Assembly (NCBI RefSeq): GCF_028561755.1 | Contig: NZ_JAQQTD010000005.1 | Span: forward strand, 62,001-126,000 | DNA from: Altibacter sp. HG106 | GTDB lineage: Bacteria > Bacteroidota > Bacteroidia > Flavobacteriales > Flavobacteriaceae | Direction of reading: 5' to 3' | DNA: 64,000 nt | Part shown: positions 58,215 to 62,567 of the stretch, in pieces | How positions within the stretch are numbered: the stretch's first letter is position 1 | Layout of the letters: each line of letters begins with the position of its first letter | Translations under genes and position numbers: made by a program | The notes under the pieces: generated by a model | Databases searched by the model: none | The model's input: the letters and a program-made list of their open reading frames with translations, nothing else | Told to the model about the DNA's origin: nothing

Positions 58215-60629
58215 ATGCAAACAGACCCAAAGACCGACAATCCTATTTCCTTTGAAGATTTCAAAGCCGAAGTACGCAACGATTACAAGATCGCGGTGAC
58301 AAGTCGCGAATGTAGTTTATTAGGACGCCGGGAAGTTCTTACCGGAAAGGCCAAATTCGGAATTTTTGGTGACGGAAAGGAAGTGCCTCAGCTCGCTTGG
58401 GCCAAAGCCTTCAAAAATGGCGATTGGCGCAGCGGATACTATCGCGACCAAACCTTTATGATGGCGATCGGGAAACTAACAGTCGAGCAGTTTTTTGCCG
58501 GTCTGTATGCCCACACCGATTTGGAAGTAGATCCTATGAGCGCCGGGCGCCAGATGGGCGGCCACTTTGGAACCCACAGCTTACATGCAGATGGTAGCTG
58601 GAGGAAGCTCACCCAACAAAAAAACAGCAGTGCCGACATCTCTCCTACCGCAGGACAAATGCCCCGACTGCTAGGATTGGCACAAGCCTCTAAATTCTTT
58701 AGGAACGAAGCGGGTGTTTCTCACCTTACTGAATTTTCCAATCAAGGAAATGAAGTGGCCTGGGGTACCATAGGGAATGCCAGCACCAGTGAAGGTCTTT
58801 TTTGGGAAACCATCAACGCGGCGGGTGTCCTTCAGGTTCCTATGATCATTAGCGTATGGGATGATGAATACGGAATTTCAGTGCACGCCAAACACCAAAC
58901 TACCAAAGAGAATATTTCTGAAATCCTCAAAGGGTTTCAGCGTACCGAAGAAGCGGCAGGCTATCAGATCATCCGAGTAAATGGCTGGGATTACGCCCAA
59001 TTAGTGGAAGCCTATAAGCAAGCCGGAGCACTTTCTCGTAACGAGCATATCCCTATTCTTATTCACGTACAGCAACTTACCCAACCACAAGGACACTCGA
59101 CCAGTGGTTCTCACGAACGATATAAAAGCGAAGAGCGATTGCAGTGGGAACGCGAGCACGATTGCAATGTGAAAATGCGAGAATGGATGATTGCCAACGA
59201 CCTGGCGACCGATGAAGAGCTTACCGAGTTGGAAAAGGAATGTAAGAAAGCGGTGCGCGATGGAAAGAAGGCAGCCTGGGAAGCCTTTATTGCTCCACAA
59301 AAGAAAGAACAACAAGAAGCCCTCACCTTATTAGGAAATCTAGCGGAAGCCTCACAAAACAAGGTCTTTATCACCAAGATCAAAGAAGAGCTGGCTTCAG
59401 AAAAAGAGCCTTTGCGCAGTACCATCGCTAGTGCGGCCAGAAAAGCATTGCGCTATGTGGCTTCAGAACGTACTTCCGAAAAGAAACAATTACAGGACTG
59501 GATTGATAATTATTTTGAGATCATACAGCCTAAATACAGCGCGCACCTCTATTCCGAAGGAGCTAAAAAAGTAACCGATGTGCAAGCAGTTGCGCCCGAA
59601 TACAGCGACGATTCAGAACTTGTAGATGGACGGATCATCTTACGTGATAACTTCGACTATATTTTTGAAAACCGCCCTGAAACTATGGTGTTCGGAGAAG
59701 ATAGCGGAACCATTGGGGATGTCAATCAAGGACTGGAAGGACTTCAGGAAAAACACGGAGCACTTCGCGTCGCCGATGCCGGAATTAGAGAGGCTACTAT
59801 TTTGGGCCAAGGTATTGGGTTGGCCATGCGTGGCCTTCGCCCCATCGCTGAAATTCAATATCTCGATTACATCCTATACTGTTTGCAGATCATGAGCGAT
59901 GATCTGGCTACCTTGCGATATCGTACCCATGGCATGCAGAAAGCACCGCTGATCGTGAGAACACGGGGACACCGACTCGAAGGTATCTGGCATAGCGGTT
60001 CGCAAATGGGTGGATTGATTCACCTGCTACGAGGAATCCATATTCTGGTGCCAAGAAATATGACGCAAGCCGCAGGATTTTACAATACCTTGCTCGACAG
60101 TGACGAACCCGCGTTGATCGTTGAATGTTTGAATGGTTATCGCCTTAAGGAAAAAATGCCAAAGAATATCGGAGCCTTTAAAACTCCGGTTGGACAGATT
60201 GAGGTGATGAAAGAAGGAACCGACATTACCTTGGTTTCCTACGGAAGCACCCTTCGCATCGTTCAAAGCGTGGCTCAGGAGCTATTGCAAGTAGGCATTG
60301 ATGCCGAAGTGATCGACGTGCAATCGCTAGTACCCTTAGATATCAAAGAAGAGTTGGTGCAAAGTGTGGCGAAGACAAACCGACTTCTCGTGATTGATGA
60401 AGATGTGCCTGGAGGGGCGTCGGCCTATATCCTTCAGCGTATCGTGGATGAACAAAACGGATATCAATATCTAGATAGCAAACCGCAGGCCTTAACGGCA
60501 AAAGCACACCGACCCGCCTACGGCACCGACGGAGATTATTTCTCAAAACCTTCCGCAGAAGATATTTTTGAAAAAGTATATGCGATCATGCACGAGAGTA
60601 ACCCAGAGAACTATCCGAAACTTCGCTAA
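58215..60629 (+). CDS. 2-oxoacid dehydrogenase E1, fused alpha and beta subunits
   Basis: The 804-residue thiamine-diphosphate enzyme joins two halves. The alpha half (about 1-380) has the metal-TPP region TIGNASTSEGLFWETINAAGVLQVPMI. The beta half (from about 470) has PETMVFGEDSGTIGDVNQGLEGL, RVADAGIREATILGQGIGLAMRGLRPIAEIQYLDY and VIDVQSLVPLDIKEELV. Fusions of this kind in Bacteroidetes are annotated as branched-chain 2-oxoacid (2-oxoisovalerate) dehydrogenase E1; the E2 and E3 genes are not in this window. The enzyme would make branched acyl-CoA primers for iso-fatty acids, which fits a flavobacterium. Confidence 0.92.
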   Translation: MQTDPKTDNPISFEDFKAEVRNDYKIAVTSRECSLLGRREVLTGKAKFGIFGDGKEVPQLAWAKAFKNGDWRSGYYRDQTFMMAIGKLTVEQFFAGLYAHTDLEVDPMSAGRQMGGHFGTHSLHADGSWRKLTQQKNSSADISPTAGQMPRLLGLAQASKFFRNEAGVSHLTEFSNQGNEVAWGTIGNASTSEGLFWETINAAGVLQVPMIISVWDDEYGISVHAKHQTTKENISEILKGFQRTEEAAGYQIIRVNGWDYAQLVEAYKQAGALSRNEHIPILIHVQQLTQPQGHSTSGSHERYKSEERLQWEREHDCNVKMREWMIANDLATDEELTELEKECKKAVRDGKKAAWEAFIAPQKKEQQEALTLLGNLAEASQNKVFITKIKEELASEKEPLRSTIASAARKALRYVASERTSEKKQLQDWIDNYFEIIQPKYSAHLYSEGAKKVTDVQAVAPEYSDDSELVDGRIILRDNFDYIFENRPETMVFGEDSGTIGDVNQGLEGLQEKHGALRVADAGIREATILGQGIGLAMRGLRPIAEIQYLDYILYCLQIMSDDLATLRYRTHGMQKAPLIVRTRGHRLEGIWHSGSQMGGLIHLLRGIHILVPRNMTQAAGFYNTLLDSDEPALIVECLNGYRLKEKMPKNIGAFKTPVGQIEVMKEGTDITLVSYGSTLRIVQSVAQELLQVGIDAEVIDVQSLVPLDIKEELVQSVAKTNRLLVIDEDVPGGASAYILQRIVDEQNGYQYLDSKPQALTAKAHRPAYGTDGDYFSKPSAEDIFEKVYAIMHESNPENYPKLR

Positions 60630-60732
60630 AAATCTATGAATTCGATATTAAAAATGGCTTTTTTCTGAATTTTATTTGGAAAAGAGCAAATTTTTATTGA
60701 ATCTTTACAACAACATAAGCAATACACAAGTC

Positions 60733-60783
60733 ATGCTAGGATTTAATTTCAATTTAAATAATAATAACAACGGAACCCCGTAG
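60733..60783 (+). CDS. Asparagine-rich leader peptide of asnB
   Basis: ATG 60733 opens a 16-codon frame, MLGFNFNLNNNNNGTP, ending at TAG 60781-60783. Seven of 16 codons are Asn, five of them consecutive (60757-60771). The next gene is asparagine synthetase, and a terminator with a competing antiterminator follows the leader stop. This is the defining layout of a ribosome-mediated attenuator: ribosomes stall on Asn codons when Asn-tRNA is scarce. Translation has not been shown, but chance clustering of Asn codons exactly here is unlikely. Confidence 0.85.
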   Translation: MLGFNFNLNNNNNGTP

Positions 60784-60784
60784 C

Positions 60785-60821
60785 AGAAACTTGTACCCTA
60801 TACCGAACCCGTCAAGTTTCT
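60785..60821 (+). promoter_or_regulatory. Antiterminator hairpin of the asnB attenuator
   Basis: AGAAACTTG (60785-60793) is perfectly complementary to CAAGTTTCT (60813-60821), a 9-bp stem. The right arm takes two bases of the terminator's left arm and its loop, and the rest of the terminator's left arm falls in the antiterminator loop, so the two structures compete. The left arm begins 2 nt after the leader stop codon. A ribosome at the stop would cover it (terminator forms), while one stalled at the Asn run would leave it free. Confidence 0.8.
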
Positions 60822-60840
60822 AACCTGACGGGTTTTTTTA
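60806..60840 (+). terminator. Intrinsic terminator in the asnB leader
   Basis: AACCCGTCA (60806-60814) pairs with TGACGGGTT (60826-60834) in a perfect 9-bp stem, followed by a run of T to 60839. It lies between the Asn-rich leader and the asnB start at 60873, so it would stop transcription before the gene. Confidence 0.88.
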
Positions 60841-60872
60841 TGACTGAAAACTAACAACCAAAAATAAATATC

Positions 60873-62567
60873 ATGTGTGGAATTGTATGTGCCTTCGAAC
60901 TTAAGCAACCTGTAGATGCGTTGCGACCTCAATTATTAAGCATGGCGAAATGCCTCAGACATCGCGGTCCCGACTGGAGTGGGATCTATACCGATGACAA
61001 GGCGATTATGGCGCACGAACGCCTGGCCATTGTAGATCCAACCTCTGGGAAGCAACCCTTATATTCGGAAGATAAAACGCTTATCTTGGCTGCCAACGGT
61101 GAGATCTATAACCATTTAGAACTTCGGAAACAATTCAAAGATTCCTATACTTTTCAGACGAAATCAGATTGTGAAGTGATTCTCCCGCTCTTCAAAGAAA
61201 AAGGAACCGACTTTCTTGATGAACTTAACGGAATCTTCGGGTTTGCTGTCTACAATGCGGAAACACAAGAATATCTTATCGCGCGAGATCATATGGGAAT
61301 CATTCCCCTCTATATGGGCTGGGACGCCAACGGCACGTTTTACGTAGCTTCCGAATTAAAAGCGTTGGAAGGTGTTTGTACCAAGATCGAGCTCTTTCCT
61401 CCTGGACATTATTTACATAGCAGCGACTCCGAACCGCAACGCTGGTTTACACGAGACTGGATGGAATATGAGAACGTTAAAGACAATATCACCAGTATTG
61501 ATGAGTTGCGAGATGCCTTAGACGCGGCGGTTCACCGTCAATTAATGAGTGACGTACCCTATGGCGTGCTATTATCAGGCGGACTGGACTCTTCTATTAC
61601 GTCTGCCTTGGCAAAAAAATATGCAGATATGCGGGTAGAGTCGGGAGATACCGAAAGTGCCTGGTACCCTAGATTGCATTCATTTGCTATTGGCCTAGAG
61701 GGGTCACCCGACTTGGCCGCGGCTCAAAAGGTAGCCGATCATTTAGGAACGGTGCATCACGAAATACACTTTACCATACAAGAAGGAATTGATGCCCTAC
61801 GCGATGTAATCTACCATGTAGAAACCTATGATATCACAACCATTCGCGCTTCTACTCCGATGTTCCTGTTAGCCCGTGCCATTAAAGCAATGGGGATTAA
61901 AATGGTTCTTTCTGGAGAAGGGGCCGACGAGATCTTCGGAGGGTATTTGTACTTTCATAAAGCCCCATCTGCGAAAGATTTTCACGAAGAGAATGTACGA
62001 AAGTTAGATAAGCTTCATATGTACGATTGTTTGCGTGCAAACAAATCGTTAGCCTCCTGGGGAATCGAAGGGCGCGTTCCATTTTTAGACAAAGAGTTTA
62101 TGGATGTTGCCATGCGGTTGAACCCCAAAGACAAGATGATCATCGCAGGACAAGACAATTCTCGTGGACGTCAAGCCATGGAAAAATGGGTGCTTCGAGA
62201 AGCCTTCGGAAACATGCTTCCAGAGGCCGTGGCATGGCGACAGAAAGAACAGTTTAGTGATGGCGTAGGGTACAGTTGGATTGATACCTTAAAAGAGATG
62301 GTAGCTAATGAAGTTTCCGACGAACAACTGGCAAATGCCAAATATCGCTTTCCGTATCAAACACCCACCAGCAAAGAAGAGTTTTATTACCGAAGCATCT
62401 TCGAAGAGCACTTCCCAAGTGATGCGGCGGCCACTACAGTGCCCTCTGTGCCAAGTGTGGCCTGTAGTAGTCAAGTAGCATTAGATTGGGATGAGAGTTT
62501 TAAGAACCAAAACGACCCCAGTGGTCGAGCGGTGGCAAAAGTTCATGCCGATGCGTATCAGAAATAG
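60873..62567 (+). CDS. asnB: Asparagine synthetase B (glutamine-hydrolysing)
   Basis: The 564-residue enzyme has Cys2 as glutaminase nucleophile (MCGIVCAFE), RHRGPDWSGIY and AANGEIYNHLELR in the N-terminal Ntn domain, and the ATP pyrophosphatase loop LLSGGLDSS (about 234-241) with VLSGEGADEIFGGYLYF in the synthetase domain. Length fits E. coli AsnB (554). It amidates aspartate using glutamine and ATP. Expression is probably set by the Asn-codon attenuator directly upstream and ends at the terminator at 62615. Confidence 0.97.
   Translation: MCGIVCAFELKQPVDALRPQLLSMAKCLRHRGPDWSGIYTDDKAIMAHERLAIVDPTSGKQPLYSEDKTLILAANGEIYNHLELRKQFKDSYTFQTKSDCEVILPLFKEKGTDFLDELNGIFGFAVYNAETQEYLIARDHMGIIPLYMGWDANGTFYVASELKALEGVCTKIELFPPGHYLHSSDSEPQRWFTRDWMEYENVKDNITSIDELRDALDAAVHRQLMSDVPYGVLLSGGLDSSITSALAKKYADMRVESGDTESAWYPRLHSFAIGLEGSPDLAAAQKVADHLGTVHHEIHFTIQEGIDALRDVIYHVETYDITTIRASTPMFLLARAIKAMGIKMVLSGEGADEIFGGYLYFHKAPSAKDFHEENVRKLDKLHMYDCLRANKSLASWGIEGRVPFLDKEFMDVAMRLNPKDKMIIAGQDNSRGRQAMEKWVLREAFGNMLPEAVAWRQKEQFSDGVGYSWIDTLKEMVANEVSDEQLANAKYRFPYQTPTSKEEFYYRSIFEEHFPSDAAATTVPSVPSVACSSQVALDWDESFKNQNDPSGRAVAKVHADAYQK

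Follow-up and report, generated by a model that had tools for sequence, protein, structure and literature searches.

In Altibacter sp. HG106, a flavobacterium, the gene asnB (60873–62567), which encodes a glutamine-hydrolysing asparagine synthetase of 564 amino acids with the Pfam domains Asn_synthase and GATase_7, is preceded by a short Asn-rich reading frame and an intrinsic terminator, and is presumed to be the gene that they regulate. Coordinates refer to the window, that is, the whole stretch of 64,000 nucleotides that was analysed, and all features given here lie on its forward strand. The leader frame (60733–60783), which would encode MLGFNFNLNNNNNGTP, starts with ATG at 60733 and stops with TAG at 60781–60783, its Asn codons being the 5th, the 7th and the 9th to 13th. 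Just after the stop codon lies segment 2 (AGAAACTTG, 60785–60793), the 5′ arm of a putative antiterminator, whose 3′ arm, segment 3 (CAAGTTTCT, 60813–60821), overlaps the 5′ arm and loop of the terminator. The terminator itself (60806–60839) consists of a 9-bp stem (3:4; 60806–60814 with 60826–60834) and T residues at 60833–60839, and its T-run is separated from the asnB start by 33 bases. The initial annotation had described a leader of 16 codons with seven Asn codons, five of them consecutive, a perfect 9-bp pairing of segments 2 and 3, and a competing 9-bp terminator at 60806–60834 plus T-run, all of which can be read in the sequence; the gap between leader and segment 2, given there as 2 nt, is 1 base. 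It had missed a third stem (1:2), in which segment 1 (ACAAGT, 60726–60731), directly 5′ of the leader start codon, has ACTTGT (60789–60794) as its partner. In the linker between segments 2 and 3 (60795–60805), CGCGATATA or ACCCTATA follows the T of segment 2, is kept within groups and occupies the same place in relatives; it has no evident pairing partner, a pause signal being one guess.

When both strands of the 64-kb window were scanned for ATG frames of 8–36 codons that are enriched in a single amino acid and have a terminator on their 3′ side, this site alone was found. A covariance model (R1), built from 26 sequences and extending from the stop codon to the T-run with the leader excluded, matched the complete genome (3.18 Mb) significantly at this site only (E 2.8e-9; next 0.146). 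Rfam searched at E values up to 1 returned two matches (0.6 and 0.78), both far under their gathering scores, and its T-box model gave no match at E up to 1 within 60000–61500. R1 was also searched in 397 genomes of the family. The best 29 non-own loci returned, nine of which were elements already inside the model alignment, all lay 5′ of asnB and all followed an Asn-rich frame. Among 20 further matches, examined mostly by score order with some skipped, nine had both asnB and an Asn-rich frame (L119–L123, L127, L130, L133 and L134) and 11 had neither. The latter (42–52 bits) resemble ordinary terminators and were not counted as elements, and the tally of 172 of the 397 genomes with an R1 match therefore overstates the spread of the element, while some weak matches outside the examined set may be true elements. 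The collected 64 elements, minus the nine duplicates, gave 55 distinct ones. Since the arrangement is kept across dozens of genomes, a chance origin can be excluded.

The 55 elements were aligned (alignment A2; 55 rows, 54 distinct) and the two competing stems evaluated. For the 2:3 stem, 99.3% of cells are paired (8 pairs counted), and in 13 sequences A-U is replaced by G-C at the outermost pair, the only one with double-sided changes; five others have one-sided changes and two are invariant. The covariation score of this stem was reached by none of 500 shuffles, its counts of double-changed pairs and of pair types are not above the shuffles (499/500 reach them), and pairing drops to 25–69% in slid registers. 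For the 3:4 stem, 96.3% of cells are paired, double-sided changes occur at six of the nine pairs (52 cells), no shuffle out of 500 reached the covariation score and no slid register was more than 45% paired. A smaller first sequence set gave the same picture for both stems. The initial annotation had proposed that the upstream regions of relatives be compared for conserved Asn-rich leaders and covarying stems; the frame is kept in 25 of 80 named asnB loci as well as throughout the 55 distinct elements, and compensatory changes are found in both stems.

The composition of the leader points in the same direction. Leaders of the 55 elements contain 3–10 Asn codons (median 7) in 11–19 codons (median 15), and Asn makes up 47% of the residues after Met. 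The leader of L106 has GTG at its script-assigned start. Because AAT and AAC are rich in A, and runs of them would be expected to fold poorly, the Asn codons might serve as nothing more than an unstructured A-rich spacer, with regulation depending on translation generally or on a protein. The codon use makes this extremely unlikely: AAT (266) is mixed with AAC (101), whereas other codons made of A and T alone are far fewer (TTA 43, TTT 26, ATT 11, ATA 7 and AAA 6), which argues that the amino acid Asn itself is conserved, and changes in the length of the Asn run preserve the leader frame. At the Asn codon four before the stop, AAC prevails (37/53), and at the two places preceding it AAT (41/49 and 51/53).

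A nearly fixed geometry connects the leader with the stems. Counted from the first base of the stop codon, the end of segment 2 lies at a distance of 12 bases in 50 of the 55 elements; counted from the first base of the run-end Asn codon, its start lies at 17 bases in 47. As a ribosome reaches approximately to +12 from its A-site codon, segment 2 should be covered right up to its end by a ribosome at the stop codon, and should be left free, with a few bases to spare, by a ribosome on the final Asn codon of the run. The initial annotation had argued for just this coverage at the Altibacter locus, and its argument fits the spacing across the elements as far as distances go. In folding calculations through segment 3, whose end was placed by a simple rule, a ribosome on the Asn run gave a mean of −7.19 kcal/mol (−4 or lower in 55/55 elements) and a ribosome at the stop codon −1.24 kcal/mol (−4 or lower in 2/55). 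With full-length RNA, the terminator is energetically preferred for either ribosome position (−19.9 and −19.2 kcal/mol), which implies that the antiterminator must win by forming first, during RNA synthesis.

Based on these data, the element is very probably a ribosome-mediated transcription attenuator that senses tRNA-Asn charging and controls asnB, as the initial annotation had suggested, and this reading is well supported by the conserved frame, the covarying stems and the near-fixed geometry. It rests on anatomy, conservation, covariation of three stems and fixed spacing, from which we infer the start site, leader translation, stalling, read-through and the direction of the response. Transcription would start approximately 15–25 bases 5′ of the leader. 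When asparagine is plentiful, the ribosome would reach the leader stop codon and cover segment 2, allowing the 3:4 terminator to form. When asparagine is short, the ribosome would stall in the Asn run, leaving segment 2 free to pair with segment 3 as soon as the latter is made, and RNA polymerase would read on into asnB. If no ribosome is on the leader, segment 1 may pair with segment 2, which would free the terminator again. The features by which attenuators of this kind are recognised are found at the locus: a presumably translated leader rich in codons of the end product (7 of 16 codons being Asn), a terminator between leader and structural gene, an antiterminator that shares segment 3 with the terminator so that the two are mutually exclusive, and an anti-antiterminator stem, which is weak in four elements.

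Nearly all leaders end in one of two residues, Pro (42/55) or Thr (12/55), encoded by several codons, the remaining one ending in Arg. This raises an alternative in which the leader is an arrest peptide that senses something else and stalls the ribosome at Pro-stop, as in the well-known arrest peptide TnaC. Such a leader is very unlikely, considering that the leaders differ in their longest Asn run (1 to 10 codons), that their N-terminal part is unconserved and that the run-end Asn codon keeps a fixed distance from segment 2; besides, stalling at the stop codon would place the ribosome over segment 2 and so promote termination.

The 1:2 stem, which involves bases 5′ of the leader start, was evaluated by folding the 16 bases preceding the start codon against segment 2. 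The mean energy was −5.56 kcal/mol, compared with −5.16 (sd 0.11) for permuted partners, a control that takes no account of relatedness among the elements, and −2.85 (sd 0.21) for shuffled sequences, none of 200 being as low in either case; a control stretch 30–45 bases before the leader start gave −1.04 kcal/mol. Double-sided changes include CAAGCT/AGCTTG (L108), AAGGT/ACCTT (L112), ACAGGTTC/GAACTTGT (L099), GCACAAG/CTTGTGC (L130), AAGCAC/GTGCTT (L134) and CGACA/TGTCG (the L021/L107 group), and little or no 1:2 stem is seen in L106, L116, L120 and L133. Folding without a ribosome is equivocal, segment 2 pairing upstream in 26 of the 55 elements and downstream in another 26. Since segment 1 precedes the start codon, the 1:2 stem should form when the ribosome is absent from the region; in the trp attenuator, 1:2 pairing frees the terminator. 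The 1:2 step is the weakest and least certain part of the proposed mechanism.

Genome context is compatible with asparagine sensing. The genome of Altibacter sp. HG106 has one asnB match and an asparaginyl-tRNA synthetase gene (asnS) above the curated cut-off, and no match to asnA was found in it; hence, the supply of free asparagine should govern tRNA-Asn charging, which the mechanism requires. Upstream of the element, a gene for an E1-type dehydrogenase is present in 23 of the 25 element-bearing named loci (L011 and L033 being without a match), and the terminator could accordingly be imagined as the ordinary 3′ terminator of that gene, with the Asn-rich frame arising by chance. That reading is barely credible, since the element remains beside asnB even in the 13 of the 23 loci in which over 600 bases separate the end of the E1 match from the leader, and since 55 elements share the Asn-rich frame and show a covarying antiterminator.

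A probable promoter element (TGAATCTTTAC, 60698–60708, 25–35 bases 5′ of the leader start) is suggested by the positions of promoter-like motifs in the 55 elements, which we take to be of the Flavobacteria '-7' type. With a looser motif set, whose variants were picked after viewing the sequences, these motifs are most frequent 30–40 bases 5′ of the leader start, where three 5-base bins hold 52 matches, with a second, smaller rise 55–65 bases upstream, and in the loci without the element they peak 31–35 bases 5′ of asnB itself (30 matches, 54 loci). The strict form TAnnTTTG occurs in very small numbers, 2 of the 54 loci without and 1 of the 25 loci with the element. An asnB transcription start downstream of 60840, which the initial annotation had named as an observation that would count against attenuation, is unlikely because of the 33 bases left there and the promoter-like motif preceding the leader. 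In L059, L069, L020, L026 and other leaderless asnB loci, inspection by eye showed TTTAAATTTGAAA-like motifs in several copies together with a promoter-like motif near asnB, and the leaderless loci viewed have a divergent small gene; these loci are perhaps controlled by a DNA-binding protein instead.

Within Flavobacteriaceae, the element has a limited distribution, a point that was missed by the initial annotation. It was found 5′ of asnB in L001–L019, L021, L022, L025, L033, L034 and L039, carriers including Aequorivita, Patiriisocius, Cochleicola, Marixanthomonas, Luteirhabdus, Thermobacterium, Pukyongia and Gilvibacter. Only 79 of the 80 named loci are informative, since L050 has only 7 bases upstream, and the element is absent from 54 of the 79; it is therefore not general for asnB. 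On an AsnB tree of 81 rows, built by a quick method, leader presence needs two changes, and none of 500 shuffles needed as few. One supported group of 28 rows contains all 26 leader rows, including that of the window, and two rows without the leader, Salinimicrobium and Gillisia, which we read as probably one gain and one loss. The initial annotation had held that relatives lacking the Asn-rich frame would speak against an attenuator; such relatives do exist, forming those 54 loci, yet all but the two rows fall outside a single AsnB clade.

Similar leaders were looked for more widely, asnB upstream regions being sampled from the order, the class, the families of G679 and G428, the genus of G550 and the order of G724. 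In genus g294 of family f5, all four genomes (two of them identical here) have an asnB leader of the same plan and unlike sequence, with 8 Asn codons each and the peptides MIFLNNNNNINNNPYAKA, MKKNLLNNNNFNNNSYP and MKKNLLNNNNLNNNSYHR. In family f9, the same plan in unlike sequence was found in three of four genomes, one leader (MNIRNINNCNNLNTPLRLRQ) having 7 Asn and the others 5 of 24 and 4 of 23. Visual inspection served to identify the g294 and f9 antiterminators as well as two of the three f9 leaders. A scan for a leader frame plus terminator covered L168–L186 and L188–L212, the misplaced stretch L187 being left aside, and only L177 (g294) and L181 (f9) passed; L139–L167 and L213–L232 were scanned for Asn-codon runs only, L167 being the asnB of the genome that also carries L133. 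The 14 asnB loci from the order of G724 showed no convincing Asn leader. In L078 and L190, an Asn-rich frame before asnB overlaps the probable promoter and has no terminator, and these two were not counted. In L191 (1280–1503, reverse complement; family f28, one genome in the family search), a frame of 28 codons with 10 Asn precedes asnB and is followed by a G+C-rich hairpin without a T-run, close to the asnB start, possibly representing a translational attenuator.

Asn leaders are also found before asnA (PF03590), the gene for an ammonia-dependent synthetase unrelated to asnB. In family f64, an Asn leader (e.g., MRHFRNNLQNNNSNNNLIRDWKAIAPLEN) and a terminator (AGCCTTCC...GGAAGGCT) precede asnA in 22 of the 31 loci scanned out of 46 matching genomes, all 22 belonging to genera g359 and g462 (L251, L253 and L265–L284), and no Asn leader was seen in the nine asnA loci scanned from genera g460/g461. 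In the class sample of 11 asnA loci, an Asn leader was present only in the two of family f64. Segment 2 of these elements (GGAAGGC) lies within the leader and is located 15–16 bases past the final Asn codon in 15 of 22 loci; for the remaining seven, the script had picked an Asn codon lying 3′ of the cluster. The bases of GGAAGGC are kept, but the leader frame in which they are read differs between loci (frame 1 in 12 and frame 0 in 4).

Such analogous leaders elsewhere, including those at asnA, had been missed by the initial annotation, and they bear on two of the alternatives above. The asnA and f9 leaders seen, as well as three of the four g294 leaders, end without Pro, contrary to an arrest peptide stalling at Pro-stop. 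Asn leaders of unlike sequence before two unrelated synthetase genes, found among asnB and asnA upstream regions and R1 matches, are at odds with a mere A-rich spacer. All three alternatives considered, i.e., the E1 terminator, the arrest peptide and the A-rich spacer, were rejected. With the asparagine-sensing attenuator as the preferred reading, we lean towards the view that this kind of control arose several times independently within Bacteroidota, on the non-homologous asnB and asnA, under one geometric rule, in which the antiterminator segment starts approximately 15–17 bases past the final Asn codon in the cluster and lies barely outside the stretch covered by a ribosome stalled there. 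As part of the same view, the extra stem in Flavobacteriaceae would also tie read-through to initiation, and Pro or Thr before the stop codon (54/55) may delay translation termination, keeping the ribosome over segment 2.

Leader-peptide attenuation is textbook knowledge for the trp, his, leu, thr, phe and ilv operons of Proteobacteria. The asnB element resembles the enterobacterial trp and his attenuators in its short leader rich in codons of the pathway end product, its competing 1:2, 2:3 and 3:4 stems and its intrinsic terminator before the structural gene. It differs in sensing Asn, in its flavobacterial host, in having segment 1 located 5′ of the leader start codon and not within the leader, and in a segment 2 that begins directly after the stop codon. 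In Firmicutes, asn genes are controlled by the T-box, which likewise reads tRNA-Asn charging and controls a choice between terminator and antiterminator; unlike the asnB element with its Asn leader, a T-box RNA makes direct contact with the tRNA and works without a leader peptide. No asparagine attenuator was found in the open-access literature at title and abstract level among the matches listed; a comparative study of attenuation by Lopatovskaya et al. in 2010 could contain related predictions. In the same bacterial family as the host of the asnB element, the main text of a study on Flavobacterium psychrophilum reports 'strong clues' to leader-peptide attenuation upstream of amino-acid biosynthesis operons, with conserved 5′ elements upstream of pheA and hisG among others, and that main text does not contain 'asn' (PMC9723704). 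The three named Flavobacterium loci in our set (L070, L073 and L074) are without an Asn frame, and a MAG labelled Flavobacterium sp. NORP82 (L021) has one and groups with the leader clade.

Taken together, leader-peptide attenuation is a known kind of regulation, and the sensed amino acid, the target genes and the apparent repeated origin seem to be new. A compact and nearly invariant geometry in Bacteroidota, whose ribosomes make little use of Shine-Dalgarno pairing, with an apparent repeated origin on unrelated genes, is the notable aspect of these elements. Asn attenuators would offer a natural test of ribosome-polymerase coupling in Bacteroidota, and the asnB leader would provide a ready-made reporter for asparagine starvation.
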